Shown piece by piece: positions 3,799 through 59,394 of a DNA stretch of 64,000 nucleotides. Position 1 is the stretch's first letter. Every line of letters starts with the position of its first letter. The position numbers and the translations under genes were made by a program. The stretch comes from Neolewinella aurantiaca (GTDB taxonomy: Bacteria; Bacteroidota; Bacteroidia; Chitinophagales; Saprospiraceae): NCBI RefSeq assembly GCF_008014675.1, contig NZ_VOXD01000004.1, positions 124,001 through 188,000 of the forward strand, read 5' to 3'. The notes under the pieces are model-generated. The model saw only the letters and a list, made by a program, of their open reading frames with translations, was not told the DNA's origin and made no database searches.

Positions 3799-5313
3799 CT
3801 ACTTCCCTCTCCTGCGGAGGACATTTACCGCCTGAAGAGCATGCTTGTTCAAGGCGCTGTAAATTTCAGGACATACATTCCACCATTTCAGGCCAAGGAG
3901 AAGAACCACAACTGCCAAAAGGGTACGTATTCCGACATTCACTAAGCTGAAGCCAGTCTCGACAGGGACCCAACTGATAGAAAAAGCAATTAAGCCAAGA
4001 GCTATGATTTTAAGGGTTTCAATTGAAAATGGCTGCATTTTCATTTTAAATAAAATGAAAAGGTACTTAGTCAGATTGTACAGGAAGATAGAAATCAGGG
4101 TAGAGCTTGCTACTCCGATCAGGCCCCATTCCAAATGGACAATAAATATGTAGTTGAAGGAAAGGTTCAACGCCGCAAGGATGAAAATTGCCACCATGTT
4201 GAACCGAAAGTAATCGGAGAATGTGATCAGGTGACTGTTAATCCCGGTGTAGAGATCAATGAGGCGGACAAATCCTAGAATGTAGAAAACACTCAGGTTT
4301 GCAAGGATCTCCGTGGGGTTCGGGGTCCAGCCAACGATATCACGAAGGTTTATGGCAATGATCACGAAGAGGGATGTTCCTACAAAACCGAGAACAGCCG
4401 AAGACCGGTCGTATATATTGCTGATCTTTTCAAGGTCCTGTTGTTTCCAGGCTTCGGCAATTATTGGTGAGGAAATGGCTCTTATTGACCTTGCCGGAAC
4501 CTCAATCACTATCGCCATAAACGCAATGACCTTGTAGACGCCGGTGCTTTCGATGTTGATGAGAGTCGTAATCATCAGGCTGTCCATCTGGGTAGCGAGG
4601 ATGGCTCCCATCGCACCGAAGGTGGTGTAGGAGGCATAAGTCGCCATCTCTTTACGCAGCCCTGGCTGGAGTATTTTATAGTTCACCTTCAAGTCGAAGG
4701 CTGTAACGCGCCAGGCATATGCAATCAAGCCCAGTAATGCTAAAGTGTACAGTCCCAGTAGCCCCCAGACGAACTCATTCTGATTGATGTACTGAAAATA
4801 CAGCAACAGAATAAGCATGGGCAGTCCCAGCTTGGGCAAAATTCCGGTAAAAACGGACTGAATGGCTATCCGGTTGTAGTTCCTCGTGTAGTTGTCGAAG
4901 AGCAGGATCAAGGCGTGTACAACGACGAAAAGAGCAAGAGGGTACTGATAAGTAGCAAAAAGGCTGAGGTCGAATCCTAACCAATCGAGGATGCTGGCCC
5001 CATAGCCCCCCAGAGAAAAAGCGATTGCAGCGCTTACTGCAAGGGTAGCAAAGGTGATCAGAAGCAGGACGCCCAGGTAGCCGTTGTCGTTGTCTTTTGT
5101 TTTCCGGAAATGGGGAAAGAACCGTAGGGCAAGATGAGTCGCTCCAAACGTAGCAAGTGGTGCCATGAAAGTGACAAAGTCGAGGCAGGTTTGTGCCAGA
5201 CCATAAGCTGCGTAATCGTAAGGGTAGATGAAGAGTGTACTGAGAGCACCTAAAATGACTCCTACGTATTGGATGAAACTGCTCTTGATGCCTTGGCGCT
5301 CAATAACTCCCAT
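3799..5313 (-). CDS. Polysaccharide flippase (Wzx/MATE-like)
   Basis: This 504-residue protein consists of about 12-14 hydrophobic segments spread over its length, beginning MGVIERQGIKSSFIQYVGVILGALST, which is typical of oligosaccharide flippases of the Wzx/RfbX (polysaccharide biosynthesis protein) family in the MOP exporter superfamily. It would move lipid-linked repeat units across the inner membrane. It is transcribed against its neighbours, convergent with the MBOAT gene and divergent from the TylF-type methyltransferase gene. A TACCTTTG element on the minus strand at 5334-5341, 20 bp before the start, is a plausible promoter. Homology is inferred from overall pattern; no short catalytic motif exists in the family. 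Confidence 0.85.
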   Translation of the reverse strand: MGVIERQGIKSSFIQYVGVILGALSTLFIYPYDYAAYGLAQTCLDFVTFMAPLATFGATHLALRFFPHFRKTKDNDNGYLGVLLLITFATLAVSAAIAFSLGGYGASILDWLGFDLSLFATYQYPLALFVVVHALILLFDNYTRNYNRIAIQSVFTGILPKLGLPMLILLLYFQYINQNEFVWGLLGLYTLALLGLIAYAWRVTAFDLKVNYKILQPGLRKEMATYASYTTFGAMGAILATQMDSLMITTLINIESTGVYKVIAFMAIVIEVPARSIRAISSPIIAEAWKQQDLEKISNIYDRSSAVLGFVGTSLFVIIAINLRDIVGWTPNPTEILANLSVFYILGFVRLIDLYTGINSHLITFSDYFRFNMVAIFILAALNLSFNYIFIVHLEWGLIGVASSTLISIFLYNLTKYLFILFKMKMQPFSIETLKIIALGLIAFSISWVPVETGFSLVNVGIRTLLAVVVLLLGLKWWNVCPEIYSALNKHALQAVNVLRRRGK

Positions 5314-14824: not shown

Positions 14825-15886
14825 ATGGAAACTATTATTCATTTGAGCGAAATCGTACTATCCATCGGCGGGGTTGACCCGGTTGCCCTTCTGGGCGAGA
14901 ACAATAAGAAGCTTAACCAGATTCGGGCTGCCTACCCGGAAACCACCATAACCCAGCGGGGTACCAAGGTGAAGGTGAGTGGAGATAAAAGCGAAGCACA
15001 GCAGATAAAGCATCATTTTGAGTTGATGATGAGGTTGCTGGAGGATAACCGCGAGTTGAACAACCAGACCATCGATGACATTCTGGCCGGAGAAAATCCC
15101 TTTATTACCAAGCTCGGCAACGGAGCTTCCAACAAGACCATAGTATATGGTCGTAACGGTAAGCCGATCAAGGCCCGTACTGCCAACCAGGCCAAGCTTG
15201 TTGAAGCTGCTGAGAAAAACGACATCGTTTTTGCCCTCGGACCTGCAGGAACGGGTAAAACGTATACCGCAGTAGCACTGGCGGTACGTGCGCTCAAAAA
15301 TAAAGCCGTTAAAAAGATCATCCTTACCCGGCCGGCGGTAGAGGCTGGCGAAAGCCTGGGCTTTCTGCCCGGAGACCTTCAGGATAAGATTGATCCCTAT
15401 CTGCGCCCGCTCTACGACGCTCTGGACGATATGATTCCCGCCGAGAAACAGGCCCGGTTTCGTGAAGACCGTACAATTGAAATCGCACCGCTGGCCTACA
15501 TGCGCGGCCGGACGCTGGACAACTGCTTCGTGATTATGGATGAAGCCCAGAACACGACGACGAGCCAGATAAAAATGTTCCTTACCCGTCTCGGTCCGTC
15601 GGCCAAGGCAATCATTACCGGCGATTTGAGTCAGGTCGATTTGCCGCGCAACCAACAATCCGGTCTACGCAGAGCGGTTAACCTGCTCAGCCCGATCAAA
15701 GGAATCGGTACTGTTCGGCTTACTGCAGACGATGTGGTTCGTCACCGCCTGGTTAAATCGATCATCAAAGCATATGATGCTGCGGATGAAGCCGAAGGCA
15801 GGGGCCGCTTCACGGCCCGTGATGAAAATACTTTCGAAAGCCTGGGGGCACCTGGCCGTAGCAGAAAGGACCAAAATGAAGGGTAA
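14825..15886 (+). CDS. phoH: PhoH family protein (ATPase)
   Basis: A 353-residue PhoH-like NTPase. After an N-terminal region with a KH-like segment (residues about 10-75), the P-loop ATPase carries Walker A GPAGTGKT (about 139-146), the PhoH block RPAVEAGESLGFLPGDL, and Walker B VIMDEAQNTT with TGDLSQVDLP. PhoH proteins are cytoplasmic ATPases linked to RNA metabolism and phosphate or stress responses; their exact reaction is unsettled. The start METIIHLSEI is chosen by family length and by the -7 element 33 bp upstream. The gene is divergent from the ECF sigma gene and is followed by a strong terminator. Confidence 0.9.
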   Translation: METIIHLSEIVLSIGGVDPVALLGENNKKLNQIRAAYPETTITQRGTKVKVSGDKSEAQQIKHHFELMMRLLEDNRELNNQTIDDILAGENPFITKLGNGASNKTIVYGRNGKPIKARTANQAKLVEAAEKNDIVFALGPAGTGKTYTAVALAVRALKNKAVKKIILTRPAVEAGESLGFLPGDLQDKIDPYLRPLYDALDDMIPAEKQARFREDRTIEIAPLAYMRGRTLDNCFVIMDEAQNTTTSQIKMFLTRLGPSAKAIITGDLSQVDLPRNQQSGLRRAVNLLSPIKGIGTVRLTADDVVRHRLVKSIIKAYDAADEAEGRGRFTARDENTFESLGAPGRSRKDQNEG

Positions 15887-15970: not shown

Positions 15971-16005
15971 GTTTTATGATGAAATTTTGGGGAAAACAGA
16001 TATTT

Positions 16006-16071
16006 CTTCATGCTTTTGGAGGCTGTTTTTTGACCCTGCGAAAAAGTTATTGTGTCCCGACATTTGTACCA
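16006..16071 (+). promoter_or_regulatory. Putative control element, left copy, upstream of the tandem peptide array
   Basis: CTTCATGCTTTTG (16006-16018), six variable bases, then GTTTTTTGACCCTG (16025-16038). Twenty bases further is GACATTTG (16059-16066), a one-mismatch version of TAnnTTTG. The same two blocks with the same spacing recur at 18540-18602. It probably holds the promoter of the peptide array, perhaps with a regulator site. Confidence 0.55.
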
Positions 16072-16157: not shown

Positions 16158-16200
16158 TCATGATCGACGATATCATGCTCTGATCCCCAGAGCGTACCAA
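16158..16200 (+). pseudogene. 5'-truncated remnant of a tandem peptide unit
   Basis: ATG ATC GAC GAT ATC ATG CTC TGA reads MIDDIML, similar to the last residues (IEDMIL) of the intact units, and the bases after the stop also resemble the spacer that follows each unit. It looks like the decayed end of an older unit. The palindrome CATGAT/ATCATG overlaps it. Confidence 0.35.
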
Positions 16201-16264
16201 CCTCTCATTGCCCTTACCGAAGGGTCGCATAACAACTTATCAACTTCTCTAAAATCAGTTCCTC

Positions 16265-16393
16265 ATGGACGCCATTCTCAACCTCCTTACTCCCGATCAG
16301 ATCGAATTCATCATCACCGCCTACGGCTCTGTTGTGGATTTCCTCACGATCCAGCAAACCACTTCCATCGCTATCGAAGACATGATCCTCTAA
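16265..16393 (+). CDS. Acidic 42-residue peptide, array unit 1
   Basis: A complete small frame, ATG to TAA, starting MDAILNLLTPDQIEF and ending SIAIEDMIL. The 42 residues include six acidic ones (Asp2, Asp11, Glu14, Asp25, Glu39, Asp40) and no Lys, Arg or His, the rest being mostly hydrophobic. There is no recognisable signal peptide or cysteine. I do not recognise the family. Conservation of frame, start and stop in three tandem units supports translation. Candidates are an intracellular protein-binding microprotein, a peptide signal read by the neighbouring helical protein, or a membrane-active peptide; none is proven. Confidence 0.6.
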   Translation: MDAILNLLTPDQIEFIITAYGSVVDFLTIQQTTSIAIEDMIL

Positions 16394-16445
16394 GGATTCT
16401 GCCCGGAAGACCACTCTCTCATCATAAACCTCTGACAAACCTCTT

Positions 16446-16574
16446 ATGGACGCCATTCTCAACCTCCTTACTCCCGATCAGATCGAATTCATCATCGCCA
16501 CCTACGGCTCTGTTGTGGATTTCCTCACGATCCAGCAAACCACTTCCATCGCTATCGAAGACATGATCCTCTAA
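16446..16574 (+). CDS. Acidic 42-residue peptide, array unit 2
   Basis: Same peptide as unit 1 except that Ile-Thr-Ala-Tyr becomes Ile-Ala-Thr-Tyr near the middle (two base changes that swap the two small residues). The reading frame is intact, with ATG in the same context (CTCTTATGGAC). Confidence 0.6.
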   Translation: MDAILNLLTPDQIEFIIATYGSVVDFLTIQQTTSIAIEDMIL

Positions 16575-16626
16575 GGATTCTGTCCGGAAGACCACTCTCT
16601 CATCACAAACCTCTGACAAACCTCTC

Positions 16627-16755
16627 ATGGACGCCATTCTCAACCTCCTTACTCCCGACCAGATCGAATTCATCATCACCGCCTACGGCTCTGTTGTGGA
16701 TTTCCTCACGATCCAGCAAACCACTTCCATCGCTATCGAAGACATGATCCTCTAA
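16627..16755 (+). CDS. Acidic 42-residue peptide, array unit 3
   Basis: Encodes the same peptide as unit 1; the only difference in the frame is a synonymous change in the Asp11 codon (GAT to GAC). Start and stop are intact. The following spacer begins like the others but then diverges. Confidence 0.6.
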   Translation: MDAILNLLTPDQIEFIITAYGSVVDFLTIQQTTSIAIEDMIL

Positions 16756-16802
16756 GGATTCTGCCCGGAAGACCGCTCTCCTATTGTAACCTCCTGTGGG
16801 AG

Positions 16803-16928
16803 GCTATTCTTAAGCTACTTACTCCCGACCAGATCTAATTCATCATCGCTACCTACGGCTCAGTCACCGACTGGTTTTCTGCCTACGGAAGCAATTGTTC
16901 TATTACTTTTCTGGACATGATGTTTTGA
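16803..16928 (+). pseudogene. Degenerate fourth array unit
   Basis: In frame it reads Ala-Ile-Leu-Lys-Leu-Leu-Thr-Pro-Asp-Gln-Ile then TAA, and continues past the stop as a diverged version of the peptide ending LDMMF and TGA. The ATG is missing. Its distal half lies antisense to the last 23 codons of the 527-residue protein gene. Confidence 0.6.
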
Positions 16929-18443
16929 TCGGCCTCTCTTTGGCTTTTCTTCCAGATGAGAAAGAAGAATCATCCATAGATCTTCGTAAGGGATAATCTC
17001 TGTGTTATTGAGAGAAGACCAATCGGTCGTATCTCTCAGCTTCCCAAAGGTGTACTTACCTTTTTCAATGGCCTTAGCCCGATTGAAGTTTGCTTTGATA
17101 ACGATGAGCAAGAGTTTGAAGAAAGCGTCATTCCTGCGGTTCTCATCGTTTTTCAGATAGCGTTTGCAGTAAGCATTCAACGCATCTGTCCGCTCCACCA
17201 TGTCATCATACTTCTTCATGATGATGAAGTAAAGTGCCTGTATAACGAGAATTTGAATGTTGACTCCCCTTTTTTCACGGCCGAAGGAAGGCACGTCATT
17301 AATGAATTTCTTGGTACGGAATTTACGAAGTACCGGCCAGGATTCATCGGGGATGATTTCTCCGGCAGTCAGCAGCAGGTTGATGGCAGCCTCCAGAATG
17401 AGCCAATACTCTGCATGGCGGGGCGTTAGTAAGCGCTTGATGCTGCTTTTGTCCAGGGCTACAAATTCACGGTAAGCGAACTCATAATTCCTTGTTCGGA
17501 GCCCGAGCTTTATAGCGTATTCCACCAGTTTTAGCTCGTGCATTGATTTTTTAGCGATTTGGAGCCTGGCGGACGCGATCTGTTGCTTCCCCATTTCAAA
17601 ATCGTTTAGCCTGATAGCACAATCAACCCGCTCCAGCGCAAGGATGCTAAGTACCGTCTGGCTGACCCCTTCACATTTCATGAGGATTTTTTCACCTTGT
17701 TCGGCCACCTTGATTGCTTCGTTGTACTCTCCCCTGAGAATGCAGCCGGTCATCTCCATACTGATATACATACCCTGCAGCTGGGACACAGCTGGGTAGT
17801 TTTTTGCAATTTTAGCGCAGATTCCAGCGTATTCACGTGCCCGTTGGCCGGTTGTTGAAGGGCTCTCTCTCTGTGCGTAGATCGAGTTTCTGATTTCCCG
17901 ATAGTAATTGCTGATGACATTGAGATCGAACGCAGCCTGACTGTAATGCCGGTGCAGATCACTGTAGTATTCAAAAAGCTTTTGATTGTAAGCCACACCA
18001 AGGTGAAGAGACGCCAGAATATCCGTCAGCCCCTGGTTAAGAGGAATGATCTCGTAGTTTCTCACGTTTTTGAATACTACAACAGCGATGTCCCGTGCAA
18101 CCTTATAAGCACGTTTACCCGCCAGCACCCTGAGTAAGGCCAGTTGCTGGTAGCCGTGTTGATAGGCTTGCTCGTAGGTAGTGTACGAAGGATTACGGGT
18201 TTCTTGCATCATGAAGGCTTCCAGGAAGATGTTCCGTAACCTGGTTCGTAGTGCTTTATACTTGGCATGATCGGCAGTAGCATCTTTTCCGTAGATCTTT
18301 TTCGCGATCTCGTCTTCCGTGTATTTACCCGAGTGTACAAGCCGGTAAAGGCTCTGAATCAACGAATCTCCCTCAGTATTTTTGAAAAATTTGGTTACTG
18401 AACGAGAACTGCACAACTGATTTAGTTCGAAAATGATGCTCAT
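16860..18443 (-). CDS. Unknown helical repeat-like protein facing the peptide array
   Basis: A 527-residue protein of no family I recognise. It is almost wholly helical in composition, with repeated aromatic/Ala-rich helices (such as EYNEAIKVAEQGEKIL and NYEFAYREFVALDK) that resemble tetratricopeptide-like hairpins, and a basic C-terminal tail (KPKRGRSKHHVQKSNR). The N-terminal 80 residues (KYTEDEIAKKIYG) could be a helix-turn-helix-like part. There is no signal peptide. ATG 18443 is preferred over an in-frame ATG at 18545, because a TTG-N20-TATTTTTA promoter ends six bases before it. The 3' end overlaps the degenerate peptide unit. TPR-like proteins next to small peptides suggest a sensor, but that is speculation. 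Confidence 0.7.
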   Translation of the reverse strand: MSIIFELNQLCSSRSVTKFFKNTEGDSLIQSLYRLVHSGKYTEDEIAKKIYGKDATADHAKYKALRTRLRNIFLEAFMMQETRNPSYTTYEQAYQHGYQQLALLRVLAGKRAYKVARDIAVVVFKNVRNYEIIPLNQGLTDILASLHLGVAYNQKLFEYYSDLHRHYSQAAFDLNVISNYYREIRNSIYAQRESPSTTGQRAREYAGICAKIAKNYPAVSQLQGMYISMEMTGCILRGEYNEAIKVAEQGEKILMKCEGVSQTVLSILALERVDCAIRLNDFEMGKQQIASARLQIAKKSMHELKLVEYAIKLGLRTRNYEFAYREFVALDKSSIKRLLTPRHAEYWLILEAAINLLLTAGEIIPDESWPVLRKFRTKKFINDVPSFGREKRGVNIQILVIQALYFIIMKKYDDMVERTDALNAYCKRYLKNDENRRNDAFFKLLLIVIKANFNRAKAIEKGKYTFGKLRDTTDWSSLNNTEIIPYEDLWMILLSHLEEKPKRGRSKHHVQKSNRTIASVGRKPVGD

Positions 18444-18479: not shown

Positions 18480-18539
18480 ATTCAACAAGCGGTTATAAAT
18501 CAGTGAATTATGCTTTTTTGGCTCAAAAAAAGAGCTGAT

Positions 18540-18602
18540 CTTCATGCTTTTGAAACCCGTTTTTTGACCCTGTTTATGTTTTCGGTCCCTCCTATCTTTG
18601 AA
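18540..18602 (+). promoter_or_regulatory. Putative control element, right copy
   Basis: CTTCATGCTTTTG (18540-18552) and GTTTTTTGACCCTG (18559-18572) are identical to the left copy at 16006. TATCTTTG at 18593-18600, 20 bases after the second block, is a perfect TAnnTTTG. It points to the right, away from the 527-residue protein gene, towards the small frame at 18642. Confidence 0.6.
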
Positions 18603-18641
18603 CTATCAAGAGTAAAACACCTGTAACTATCTGGTTCTACG

Positions 18642-18737
18642 ATGTGCTCTGAAAGAGAATATGTGTTTGTTTATAGTGTCTCTTATAAAGTGTTGTTCAT
18701 AGTATTTCAGTCAGTAATGTTTCAGAGGGTACTGTAA
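18642..18737 (+). CDS. Possible 31-residue hydrophobic peptide
   Basis: ATG to TAA frame beginning MCSEREYVFVYSV and rich in Val, Phe and Tyr, downstream of the right control element. Nothing but position and the promoter supports it; it is not similar to the array peptide. It may be a chance frame in a noncoding RNA. Confidence 0.25.
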   Translation: MCSEREYVFVYSVSYKVLFIVFQSVMFQRVL

Positions 18738-18776
18738 TTACAGTATTAACATTTATCTGGCACGCCATGAGGCGTT

Positions 18777-18823
18777 GGTAAAAAGAGTAAAAACTGTTCG
18801 ATTAACGGTTTCTTCTTTTTACC
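18777..18823. repeat. AT-rich inverted repeat
   Basis: GGTAAAAAGA at the left end pairs with TCTTTTTACC at the right, with further partial pairing inside. It may end the transcript from the 18593 promoter, although the stem is AT-rich. Confidence 0.4.
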
Positions 18824-19087
18824 ACGCACATGGCGCTTTTTTTTGCCCAAACCGAACCTTTTATGGCTTTTGGGCGGCCTATCGTCCTCTTCCTTAATGG
18901 TTTATTGATGACAAAGCAACAGGCAAACGAACCGGCATCATGACGAATTGGTGCTGAAGCAGGCGCTCGGGATGCATAAATCCGTGGGGCTGAATTCTGG
19001 CTTTTCGTCTCTTCTTCCAATCTTGCTTAAAACTTGAGGGCAAGGCATCCGAAAGATGCCCGGGTGTGGCTCGCACCACAAACAAAA
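18824..19087. other. Noncoding stretch before the sigma factor terminator
   Basis: No gene could be supported here. A small hairpin GGCATC/GATGCC lies at about 19046-19062, next to a second one built on GTGG/CCAC. Confidence 0.4.
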
Positions 19088-23828: not shown

Positions 23829-26306
23829 TTACCGGGCTACCACAAAACGGCGGCTGCCCTTTTCAGTGTCGCCTTCGTACCGGAAAAAATAGGAACCGTT
23901 TGGTAAGTCACCTACTGACAGCTGGGTTTTACCGTTGGTGAAAGTTCCTTGTTTTACGGCACGGCCGGTAAGGTCGATCACCTCGTAACTTATTTCACTG
24001 TTTGTGGCCGGAAGGTTAACCGTGATTTCCCGGCTGGCGGGATTGGGCGTAAGCAGCAGGCCGGCATCAGTTTGTTGCATAAGGCCTGTTGCCGGAAGCT
24101 CGGATGTTGCAGGCTCGCAGGGCTGACCTTCGGTGATTACCACGTCGCGGAAGTAGCTGTTACCATCGCGTGTGCCCACATCGTGGTCGGCAGTAAAGAA
24201 GAGGTACCTCGCCTGAAGGGTGTAGTACTGTCCGATCGGAATCTGGTAGTGGCGCCAGGATCCGTCTCCGGGGTAATTGTTGAAGTCACCAAGGCCCCAG
24301 CCCTGGGTACCGTACACCCGGAAGGTGAGGTTAGAGGAGAGTACCTCGTTATCATCCATACCGATACCGTGGACTTCGCCCTGCATCGTTGACCTGAACC
24401 AGAAAGATACCCAGGTGTCTGGAGTCATTTCATAATCTACTTCAATGGCTTTCCAGGCGTTGTTTTGGAGGAAAATACCTTCGCCACCTGAAAGCAGGCT
24501 TACGGTTCCTGCGTCCTGATTGGTACCGTAGGTTACAACGGTGTTTTCAACGAAGTCGATTACGTCACAGTCGCTTGCGGGCTCATCATCATCGTCCTCT
24601 ACTTCAGGCAAGCAGAAGTCTATCACGTCCAGGGTGTCGAATTGGCTTCCGGAACCGATTACGTTACCGGTCGAGTCCTGCAGGAGGTAGCTTCCCTGGC
24701 CATAATCGCAGCAGATACCGTCTCCGTCGGAGTCGCTGATTTCAAAGATGTAGCATCCGTCGATCACACAAACAGTGTCTTTGAATACTTGTCCTTTTTT
24801 CTTCTTGGCGTAAGGCCCTCCTGTAGCGACTACGGTTCCTGTCTCCGTTTTGATCAGCCAGGTGGTTTCCATCCCGAAATCATCGAGGGTGAGGTTTACG
24901 TAGACGGTTTGCTGGTCGCAACTGATGGGTTCCTGCGGGGGATCGTTGTCATCGTTGTCATCATCGTCGTCATTGTTGTCGTCGTCATCATCATTGTTTC
25001 CTCCGGGAGGGGTGGAACAAACAGACTGTACGCAACCCTGAGCGGCCGCAACGCGGTTTGCAATCACGGCAGTCGGCTGAGGACCAAAGCCGAAGTTGAA
25101 GTTGATGCCCTGAGGACGCAGGTGGCAGTAAGACATGATGGTTCCGCCCTGAGCGGGAATCCCGGGGGTGCCACAAAATCCTTCGGTGATGCCGGCGCAA
25201 CCGTCGATAGCGGTGTTGTCACCGTTCCAGACACAGGCGTGAGTATGCTGACTGCCGAGTAAGTGGCCCAGTTCGTGGGCAATTACCATTGTCGACCAGC
25301 TGTAAACAGGAACCGCTGCGTAGTTGGAGGCAATACTGGAGAAACTCATCCGGGCTGCCGTCCAGGGGTGGCAGAGCCCGTCGAGAACCGCGATACCTCC
25401 GCTGGCCTGGTAGCTGACGAGTTGAGCGAGATCACCGTTGAAGCTGGTACGGGCCGACTGGAATTGGGTGAGCATGGCGCTGCTGCTCGTTCCGCCGTAG
25501 GGGCTGATCTGGTCCCAGACCAGGATCTCGCTGATGTGCAGGTTTACCCCGATCTCGGAATAGAGGGAGGCGACTTCATTGAAGTTGGCGGCAAGGTGTT
25601 GCGCCGCAGCGTTGGCTCCGCCTTTGTCGAAAAAGATGTCGTAATCAATTTCGAAGTAAACATCGACACAACCTACGTCGGTTTTTTCGTCGGCAGGGTA
25701 GTCGAGTTCCTTTGCGGAGTAGGGTTGGCCGCTATCGGCAGTACCACAATCAAATTCCTGACCTTCGGCAAGCTGAGCATCAGGGAAAAGAAGGTAGGTC
25801 GTCTGCGGGTTCTTTGCTACCTGGTTTTGGATTTTCCCCAGGGCGAGGCGACTGCCGTCGGCACGGGAAATGGTGGCGGTTAGTTCCCCATCCAGCAGGG
25901 AAAGAGCGACCCGACTACCTGGTTCGCCGGCAACGCTGCCGGTGTAGTGCAGACCGAGGTCTGCGTTGGCAACGACCCGGTTATCCGAAGCAAGTCGGAG
26001 AATGAAGTCGTGACGCAGGAAGTCGTTTTGCTCCAACTCGAGCCGTAAACCGGAGCTGAGGCCTGTTATTGCCGGGAGTTCGAGCTCCCAGGTGACGGGA
26101 GCCTCGGCGAGGAGTTGAGAGTAATCTTCAGCATCTACCTCCAGGAGGCCGTAATTTTTAAGCTCTTTGCCCACAAGGCTTTCCGTTGCAGCTTTGTTGG
26201 TAACAGTACGGAATAGTGTGGATTTCTGAGCAGTGAGTGAATGAGAGACAGAGAAAAATAAGATCGGCAAAAAGGTGCCAATCACTAGGTTTAAAATAGA
26301 TTTCAT
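23829..26306 (-). CDS. Secreted reprolysin-like zinc metalloprotease with T9SS type A sorting domain
   Basis: An 825-residue exported protease. The signal peptide starts MKSILNLVIGTF; ATG 26306 is chosen over 26333 for that reason. A propeptide-like region (about 25-200) is followed by a metzincin domain with HELGHLLGSQH (344-354), whose three histidines bind zinc and whose Glu345 is catalytic, as in M12 reprolysins. A linker of about 20 Asp/Asn residues follows, then domains with calcium-type acidic repeats. The end has PNPASREITVNLP and GSYFFRYEG, a type A Por sorting domain. It should be released or surface-bound and degrade extracellular protein. A promoter candidate lies at 26635-26666. 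Confidence 0.9.
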   Translation of the reverse strand: MKSILNLVIGTFLPILFFSVSHSLTAQKSTLFRTVTNKAATESLVGKELKNYGLLEVDAEDYSQLLAEAPVTWELELPAITGLSSGLRLELEQNDFLRHDFILRLASDNRVVANADLGLHYTGSVAGEPGSRVALSLLDGELTATISRADGSRLALGKIQNQVAKNPQTTYLLFPDAQLAEGQEFDCGTADSGQPYSAKELDYPADEKTDVGCVDVYFEIDYDIFFDKGGANAAAQHLAANFNEVASLYSEIGVNLHISEILVWDQISPYGGTSSSAMLTQFQSARTSFNGDLAQLVSYQASGGIAVLDGLCHPWTAARMSFSSIASNYAAVPVYSWSTMVIAHELGHLLGSQHTHACVWNGDNTAIDGCAGITEGFCGTPGIPAQGGTIMSYCHLRPQGINFNFGFGPQPTAVIANRVAAAQGCVQSVCSTPPGGNNDDDDDNNDDDDDNDDNDPPQEPISCDQQTVYVNLTLDDFGMETTWLIKTETGTVVATGGPYAKKKKGQVFKDTVCVIDGCYIFEISDSDGDGICCDYGQGSYLLQDSTGNVIGSGSQFDTLDVIDFCLPEVEDDDDEPASDCDVIDFVENTVVTYGTNQDAGTVSLLSGGEGIFLQNNAWKAIEVDYEMTPDTWVSFWFRSTMQGEVHGIGMDDNEVLSSNLTFRVYGTQGWGLGDFNNYPGDGSWRHYQIPIGQYYTLQARYLFFTADHDVGTRDGNSYFRDVVITEGQPCEPATSELPATGLMQQTDAGLLLTPNPASREITVNLPATNSEISYEVIDLTGRAVKQGTFTNGKTQLSVGDLPNGSYFFRYEGDTEKGSRRFVVAR
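24940..25010 (-). repeat. Asp/Asn codon microsatellite in the protease gene
   Basis: Repeated GAT/GAC/AAC codons encode the Asp/Asn linker. Such runs can change length by slippage without breaking the frame in steps of three. Confidence 0.6.
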
Positions 26307-42637: not shown

Positions 42638-43162
42638 ATGACGCTGAAAGAAATCCAGGAGTTGATCAAGCTCGTAGCCAAAACCGAACTTTCCGAATTC
42701 CGTTACAAAGACGGAGACGTAAAACTGCACATTCGTGGTAAGTCCTACGTTGGCAGCGGAGGTGGTAACCGCCAGTCCGGTGCGGGGCCATCCATCATTA
42801 ATGTTCCCGCAGCAGCTCCTGCTTACGGACCTGCTCCGGCAGCTCCTGCTCCGGCAGCACCCGTTGCTCCGCAAGCACCCGCTGCACCCGCGGCCGCGCC
42901 TAAAGCAGATGATGAAAGTCGCTACGTAGAAGTGAAGTCACCCATGATCGGTACTTTCTACCGTTCTCCTTCGCCCGACAAAGACCCTTACGTGAAGGTG
43001 GGAGACATGATCAAAAAAGGCGATACGGTATGTATCGTGGAAGCAATGAAGCTGTTCAATGAAATTGAATCTGAAGTAAGCGGGAAAATCGTGAAGATGC
43101 TGGTAGATGATGCCTCTCCGATCGAGTATGATCAGCCGCTCTACCTCGTAGATCCAGCTTAA
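42638..43162 (+). CDS. accB: Acetyl-CoA carboxylase biotin carboxyl carrier protein
   Basis: A 174-residue protein with a conserved N-terminal helix region (MTLKEIQELIKLVAKTELSE), a flexible Pro/Ala linker (about 60-95), and a biotinyl domain with IVEAMKLFNEIES, in which Lys138 carries biotin. It shuttles carboxybiotin in the first step of fatty-acid synthesis. ATG 42638 is chosen because the family starts with this helix; the longer frame beginning 42536 adds a non-conserved extension. Within the linker, an interspersed element (42881-42900) encodes Ala-Pro-Ala-Ala-Ala-Pro. accC follows 175 bp later. Confidence 0.95.
   Translation: MTLKEIQELIKLVAKTELSEFRYKDGDVKLHIRGKSYVGSGGGNRQSGAGPSIINVPAAAPAYGPAPAAPAPAAPVAPQAPAAPAAAPKADDESRYVEVKSPMIGTFYRSPSPDKDPYVKVGDMIKKGDTVCIVEAMKLFNEIESEVSGKIVKMLVDDASPIEYDQPLYLVDPA
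42881..42900 (+). repeat. Interspersed GC element, copy R12 (coding, AccB linker)
   Basis: GCTGCACCCGCGGCCGCGCC, read as Ala-Pro-Ala-Ala-Ala-Pro. The linker is already Ala/Pro-rich, so this could partly be chance. Confidence 0.6.
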
Positions 43163-59260: not shown

Positions 59261-59394
59261 GTCGGGAGTATCTGAGTCGGGAGTCGGGAGTCGTGAGTCA
59301 CGACTCCCGACTCCCGACTCCTATACTCCCGACTCCCGACTCAGACACTCCCGACTCCTACACTCCCGACTCCCGACTCAGATACTCCTGATTC
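59261..59394. repeat. Heptamer repeat cluster containing a 23-bp perfect inverted repeat
   Basis: About fifteen copies of the word TCGGGAG or its complement CTCCCGA in 134 bases. A perfect inverted repeat with 23-base arms (59274-59296 and 59298-59320) is included. It lies between two convergent genes and runs into the 3' end of the glycosyltransferase, encoding its last residues. Confidence 0.88.

Follow-up and report, generated by a model that had tools for sequence, protein, structure and literature searches.

Tandem peptide genes beside a TPR-like protein gene in Neolewinella: a locus that looks like a peptide signalling device

The array and its neighbouring genes

The window, which is the whole 64 000-nucleotide stretch of Neolewinella aurantiaca DNA analysed here, contains a tandem array of short genes between phoH (14828–15883, plus strand; Pfam PhoH, E=2e-91) and a convergent gene on the minus strand (16860–18443). 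The array is made up of three direct repeats of 181 nt each (16262–16442, 16443–16623 and 16624–16804), the second and third being 97% and 91% identical to the first (TRF score 989). Each repeat carries one intact 42-codon frame on the plus strand (unit 1, 16265–16393; unit 2, 16446–16574; unit 3, 16627–16755) for a putative precursor with the C-terminal sequence IAIEDMIL. The three intact units given in the preliminary description of this locus were recovered both by the repeat search and as open reading frames.

The diverged fourth unit of that description is also present (plus strand, about 16792–16928). It was recognized by a 73-nt match at 81% and by a protein match containing one TAA, and it overlaps the 3′ end of the convergent gene. 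The proposal that the array grows and decays is supported. At the place where the intact units read VDF, and relatives ADW or ANW, the decayed unit has retained TDW, and it may therefore be the older copy.

Between units 1 and 2 there are five differences, two in the coding part (Thr to Ala and Ala to Thr) and three outside it. Unit 3 departs from unit 1 at 16 sites, namely one synonymous change within the 129 coding bases and 15 changes in the other 52 bases. As had been proposed, the coding differences are either synonymous or Thr/Ala swaps. Every intact unit specifies six acidic residues (Asp or Glu) and neither Lys nor Arg.

Upstream of the array, at 16160–16183 on the plus strand, lies a seven-codon ORF, MIDDIML, which echoes the C-terminal message of the 42-residue peptide. 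It had been taken for a 5′ remnant of the array but is complete from ATG to stop, and 16 of 17 array-bearing genomes have similar ORFs next to the orthologous gene. A promoter element, TGCTTTTG-N8-TTTTTGACCC, precedes the array at 16011–16036 (plus strand). Its second copy, found as a repeat match at 18545–18570 on the same strand, precedes a conserved, apparently non-coding RNA with a terminator-like end (18601–18839, plus strand; nhmmer). Three further tandem repeats were reported by TRF in the window (59301–59388, 24942–24998 and 42830–42881), one of them an ACTCCCGACTCC array.

Packagings of the peptide in the genus

A profile of the peptide (A3) matched 17 of the 21 genomes of the genus, whose named members are Neolewinella. 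When the profile was run against 199 genomes drawn from the family, four genus genomes matched and three others did so weakly. Matches in G088, G176 and G218 contained two stops or were partial matches in long frames, and were discarded as noise. Records with such loci that carry a name are Neolewinella and Lewinella strains (aquimaris, litorea, marina, xylanilytica, maritima, agarilytica, antarctica, persica, lacunae and others) and two MAGs. The preliminary description knew no family for the peptide; this stands in so far as neither Pfam nor NCBIfam has a named family for it, but relatives are found genus-wide. The usual gene order in the genus is phoH, array and a convergent gene of about 510 codons; in G015, the array is flanked by two such genes. 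At the genus loci seen, which are chromosomal and next to phoH, no phage genes were noticed.

The genome of the window contains a second, unlinked pair (G000:C35, locus L027). There, a 51-residue ORF with the tail VVNEDIHL is convergent with a gene whose product is 28–29% identical to the protein encoded beside the array.

Across species, it is chiefly the C-terminal heptapeptide that is conserved, approximately as VVEDII[LM]. Conservation of the N-terminal leader is weaker and follows the pattern L[ST]x(2)x[ILV], with YG[ST] in several peptides and AS in G002. The leaders of the array peptides contain no GG, and no double glycine is conserved among them.

The heptapeptide occurs in three packagings. 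The first consists of single-unit precursors of 39–51 residues; the window genome (at both loci), G002, G005, G006, G008, G014, G015 and G019 carry between one such gene and about nine consecutive ones. The second consists of the seven-codon ORFs. The third, found in nine genomes (L061–L068 and L098), consists of polyproteins in which a leader of about 29 residues is followed by in-frame copies of IVVED[IV][IV], 6–10 of them in complete chains of 114–196 residues; the L098 polyprotein runs off its contig. The spacers between the copies are basic (for example RGAEVASNN). The designation of the peptide as purely acidic thus fits the units of the window but is not general. Repeat periods of the gene arrays are 181, 182, 349, 226, 217 or 169 bp depending on the species, while the polyproteins have units of mostly 33–51 bp. 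Since the periods differ between species, the increase in copy number appears to have happened separately, along two routes.

Seven-codon ORFs of the form M[IVT][ED]D[ILV][ILVM][LIMFY] were counted manually. Of the 17 array-bearing genomes, all but G014 have them, with 33 ORFs in total that begin with ATG; where another in-frame ATG lies farther upstream, as in some of them, the start is uncertain. A DNA pattern for these mini-ORFs, which misses some codons and whose matches differ from the ORFs counted manually, also gave 33 matches in 60 genomes, as compared with nine in all for the reversed pattern. Of the 33 matches, 29 lie in the array locus; the remainder are in G020:C53, which is the other half of a locus split by a contig end, and elsewhere in G004:C33, G045 and G054.

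The peptide had been proposed to be a real microprotein under purifying selection, as opposed to a frame that is broken in relatives. The frames proved to be intact except for single decayed copies in the window and in G002. Pooled comparisons within arrays, covering 27 ORFs, revealed 173 synonymous changes at 1266 sites and 112 others at 4044 sites (pN/pS 0.20, from pairs that are not independent and from ORFs of listed peptides), which indicates that selection acts on the peptide. Between the window units and the peptide of G008, pS is 0.86–0.89 and pN is 0.24–0.26. In L060–L068, 111 copies of the motif use 50 different 21-mers for three peptides; these copies were picked by peptide, and the constancy at codon positions 1 and 2 is partly by construction. 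The concentration of mini-ORF matches at one locus, set against the reversed pattern, and the ratio of 0.20 together show that the recurrence of the motif is more than chance.

The convergent gene and a shared promoter element

The convergent gene encodes a protein of 527 residues, its start being set by homologues (the longest ORF would start at 18545). We propose it as the receptor of the peptide on the basis of co-occurrence, its modelled structure, fold matches and its position in the tree. The array-bearing genomes are exactly those with a near-complete orthologue of this protein (at least 41% identity). As to the other four genomes of the genus, G003 gave no match and G011 distant relatives only; G010, a genome 55% complete, gave a weak fragment at the edge of a contig, and in G018 the orthologue is cut by the contig end, so that an array there cannot be judged. 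The preliminary description had recognized a real array but had overlooked both the heptapeptide as its chief conserved part and the convergent gene as its co-occurring partner.

The association is also seen in gene order. Among 19 distinct array-associated genes, 17 have an ORF ending in the motif on their convergent 3′ side, as compared with none of 31 distant relatives, one of which (L084) has no 3′ flank while others have short ones; the 51 entries examined represent 50 distinct genes, L059 being a duplicate of L026. L024:5660 and L027 depart from this order: the former has the array on its other side, and in the latter the peptide tail falls outside the regular expression. A looser expression gave four hits around the 31 distant relatives, none of them on the convergent 3′ side, and such peptides beside distant relatives were rejected as a general feature. 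In one of the four, at L096 (G002), a 41-residue ORF with the tail VIEDVVM lies about 248 bases beyond the 5′ end of a distant relative, which may be a pair or a chance match.

In a tree of 44 proteins, the 18 peptide-bearing members form one clade together with L024:5660 (support 100/99), and the putative receptors of the nine polyprotein genomes form a clade of their own (100/100). The family of about 510 residues is wider than the peptide: it occurs in 39 of 60 genomes, many of them with several copies. Candidate residues for a peptide pocket, conserved in 16 or 17 of the 17 orthologues as compared with 0–2 of 25 distant relatives, include R182, R185, Y189, R272, H343 and Q397.

Sequence searches did not assign the protein to a known family. 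It had no NCBIfam match and no significant Pfam match; the Pfam and NCBIfam searches with the peptides and the protein gave, between them, one sub-threshold Pfam hit (DUF134). Pfam searches with the 17 orthologues gave nine families, each in one member only, the best at E=0.016 and TPR_12 at 0.099. No PDB chain matched a sequence profile up to E=10. In a contig scan, the 527-residue protein alone found no relative; a second scan, with A2, gave names for 15 genus loci.

AlphaFold2, run with 44 sequences, predicts an all-helical, TPR-like structure (pLDDT 88.5, pTM 0.83). Foldseek gave no match below E=0.001 in the PDB, AimR (6hp3) being third at E=0.010. In VIA-align, where differences in Z below 1 are ties, the model scored 17.0 with Rap of pLS20 (rmsd 4.0, 271 aligned), 16.9 with RapI, 16.7 with Rap with CSF, 15.8 with NprR and 15.2 with AimR (6jg8; rmsd 6.8, 312 aligned, residues 3–499). 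The TPR proteins LGN, MalT and Rpn6 reached 16.8, 16.3 and 15.8. As Rap, NprR and AimR are tied with other TPR proteins, the modelled fold is best described as one that peptide-binding TPR proteins have in general and that is not specific to RRNPP receptors. The N-terminal 90 residues were also folded alone (pLDDT 79.4). Sigma region 4 domains came first (Z 5.5, 5.0 and 4.8) and several other DNA-binding domains followed in the next rows, all of these matches being weak, as is the case for an HTH at the N-terminus.

The promoter elements before the array and before the RNA are part of a 34-bp stretch (16005–16038) that recurs at 18539–18572 with 88% identity. The 6-Mb genome of the window contains three sites for the element at up to two mismatches and five at up to three, while a reversed control gave none; this argues against a common promoter. 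At its third site in this genome, 26 of 30 bases are alike, and the site lies 64 bp before the gene for a 729-residue ABC transporter with a C39 peptidase domain (G000:C66; E=4e-30). This exporter gene (L178, 762–3040) is 90% identical in G002, with the element at its promoter in the window genome only. A short ORF after the exporter gene resembles, by eye, the start of an HlyD-type protein in L218.

The element is present at the array and RNA promoters in the window genome and in G008. A search of 14 genus and seven other genomes also found it in G005, with two mismatches and before an unrelated gene, and gave one control match in G003. An element common to array and RNA throughout the genus was rejected: scores were strong in the window (24.0 vs. 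a shuffle maximum of 12.0) and in G008 (23.0 vs. 19.0) only. They were moderate in L064 (17.5 vs. 11.0) and L068 (14.5 vs. 12.5), 12 vs. 11.5 in L021 and L022, and within the shuffles in the other nine loci compared (L026 left out). The same holds for a genus-wide element of array and exporter. Among 20 comparisons in 15 genomes, one was strong (the window genome, 20.0 vs. 12.5) and one marginal (L208 of G015, 11.5 vs. 10.0); the rest fell within the shuffles.

The RNA is located between the putative receptor gene, from which it is divergent, and a sigma-factor gene, about 1.7 kb from the array and not antisense to it. Its conservation as detected by nhmmer is clear in G008 (E=1e-23) and weak in G005 and G018. 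In the polyprotein genomes a short core occupies the corresponding position, as it does, judged by eye, in G002, G006 and G015. No Rfam family was above threshold, two matches being far below theirs. An RNA-like core, AAAGTGTTGTTCATAGTGTTT, also occurs at G000:C22 and, in part, at G003:C233, away from any receptor gene.

The flanks of the array loci gave no tblastn hit with one SPASM, one LanB-type, two exporter and two HlyD queries. Distant relatives of the 527-residue protein lie within about 15 kb of genes for peptide export or maturation in L214, L215, L216 and L217, loci which were picked because exporter and relative shared a contig and which are examples, not a rate. Among loci taken without such choice, only L133 has an exporter, and exporters beside distant relatives were rejected as a general rule. 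In L214 (5187–12864), a canonical double-glycine precursor, LTDSELANIFGG, faces two relatives of the protein in convergent orientation, and HlyD-like and peptidase-ABC exporter genes come next. Such precursors are likewise not general beside the family: this was the only ORF of its kind in 462 695 bases, the reversed sequence giving none. The relative in L216 is near a grasp-with-spasm locus (maturase TIGR04193), and that in L217 is near lanthipeptide-like precursors with CCxKSCNRR ends and a TIGR03891 protein.

A possible role in peptide signalling

With moderate confidence, we interpret the locus as a module of peptide ligand and receptor that operates, here in Bacteroidota, in the manner of the RRNPP systems known from Firmicutes. 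The starting points, all read from the sequence, are the array, the packagings, the selection on the peptide, its co-occurrence with the protein, the TPR-like model and the common element. We count in favour of such a module that one message occurs in three packagings beside the same neighbour gene, and that in the second, unlinked pair of the window genome a diverged peptide tail goes with a diverged putative receptor. Copy number was increased in more than one way across species, which suggests that dose or multivalency is what selection favours.

For the steps of such a module, namely transcription, translation, cleavage, peptide binding, DNA binding, export and uptake, we infer the following scheme. 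From each array gene a short precursor would be made, with the active ligand formed by its last six to eight residues, an E/D-D pair and then hydrophobic residues. The seven-codon ORFs would give an almost identical peptide that needs no processing, and polyproteins in other species would supply many ligand copies per chain. The ligand may occupy the groove of the convergent TPR-like protein, and a possible HTH-like domain at the N-terminus of the latter may act on the element common to the array, the small RNA and, in this species, the peptide-exporter gene. As to the peptide leaving the cell, the precursors without a basic residue and the processing-free seven-codon ORFs speak against it, while the exporter promoter hints at it.

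An intracellular role without any cell–cell signal appears unlikely to us. Here the peptides would be multivalent docking motifs that titrate the TPR-like protein or another partner or bring it into clusters, with stoichiometry set by copy number. Such a role would agree with the single-unit precursors, which have no Lys or Arg and thus no Sec-type, signal-like start, with seven-codon ORFs that would give a cytosolic peptide directly, and with polyproteins that are strings of one motif. Against it stand the element before a peptide exporter and the family relatives beside peptide-export genes in the chosen examples.

It is rather improbable that the peptides are themselves the product, as secreted bacteriocin or RiPP precursors, with the TPR-like protein as regulator or immunity factor. 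A leader with a short core, tandem cores, the C39-peptidase exporter behind the same element in this species and the TPR-like relatives near grasp-with-spasm and lanthipeptide-type genes would suit this explanation. However, the array-locus flanks searched have no exporter, HlyD, SPASM or LanB-type relative, the peptides have no conserved modifiable pattern beyond the acidic pair, and the seven-codon ORFs lack a leader. Type I toxin–antitoxin-like repeats or another RNA-level element, with the RNA itself or small toxic peptides under antisense RNA as the active part, are highly improbable: a tandemly duplicated small hydrophobic ORF with a conserved small RNA nearby would fit, but the peptides are acidic with charges spread along them, the codons vary beneath a constant peptide (the 21-mers of the peptide-selected motif copies), the pN/pS ratio is low and Rfam gave no family above threshold.

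In Firmicutes and their phages, cytoplasmic TPR receptors that read linear peptide ligands have been described. The RRNPP(A) receptors, except for Rap, all have an N-terminal HTH domain. The ligand/receptor module proposed here is like the RRNPP/RRNPPA systems (Rap-Phr, NprR-NprX, PlcR-PapR, PrgX, Rgg-SHP, AimR-AimP) in its small precursor genes with a presumed C-terminal ligand, which adjoin the gene for a TPR-like protein with a possible HTH start. It is unlike them in belonging to Bacteroidota, in having no detected sequence homology and no Sec-type precursor, and in its seven-codon ORFs, its 6–10 copies per polyprotein and its convergent gene order. We do not class the locus as RRNPP, since sequence homology and an export signal were both tested and neither was found. 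The locus resembles the arbitrium system (AimR-AimP-aimX), in which aimX is an RNA, in two respects: AimR ranks with the closest folds, aligned across almost the entire protein, and an RNA gene is close to the putative receptor gene. In contrast to arbitrium, the loci are chromosomal and next to phoH, and the RNA is divergent from the receptor gene, its control by the receptor being putative.

Among the RRNPP(A) systems covered in one paper, the receptors have 5–9 TPRs, propeptides with up to six pheromone copies occur, some Rap systems have several propeptide genes, and a higher pheromone/receptor ratio is the proposed effect of multiplied pheromones (PMC9765709). Both routes to a multiplied ligand are seen in the Neolewinella loci, with more copies and in another phylum. 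A large survey, by its own account, was confined to complete genomes of Firmicutes (PMC10075063). Genes of seven codons have a precedent in mccA of microcin C7, described as encoding MRTGNAN (PMC11241378); the Neolewinella peptide is unrelated to it in sequence and has a hydrophobic end, not Asn. The exporter with the same element in this genome and the distant TPR-like relatives near such genes recall systems with double-glycine leaders and C39 exporters, including grasp-with-spasm and lanthipeptide systems, from which the array peptides differ by a leader lacking a conserved double glycine and by the absence of maturase and exporter from the flanks searched.

In the open-licence literature searched, we found neither a description of such a locus nor an RRNPP system in Bacteroidetes/Bacteroidota, and the locus looks like an undescribed peptide signalling device. 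A wider proposal can be offered only tentatively. Neolewinella may have a peptide language of its own, in which heptapeptides from seven-codon genes are amplified as arrays or polyprotein repeats and read by a new class of HTH-TPR receptors. These would be widespread in the order, with several per genome and some near RiPP or peptide-export genes, and would be tied by a common element to a small RNA and an exporter. This might amount to independently evolved RRNPP-like signalling in a Gram-negative phylum.

The locus suggests a function for a large unnamed protein family. The genus offers a natural series (single gene, gene array and polyprotein) for the evolution of signal copy number. Since the paired locus occurs in cultured marine Bacteroidota and the ligand is presumably spelled out by a seven-codon ORF, the proposal is directly testable with synthetic heptapeptides. 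Finally, the stretch (E)IIPYExLW near the C-terminus of the 527-residue family (residues 482–497) resembles the acidic-hydrophobic motif of the peptides, either as a possible internal mimic or by chance.
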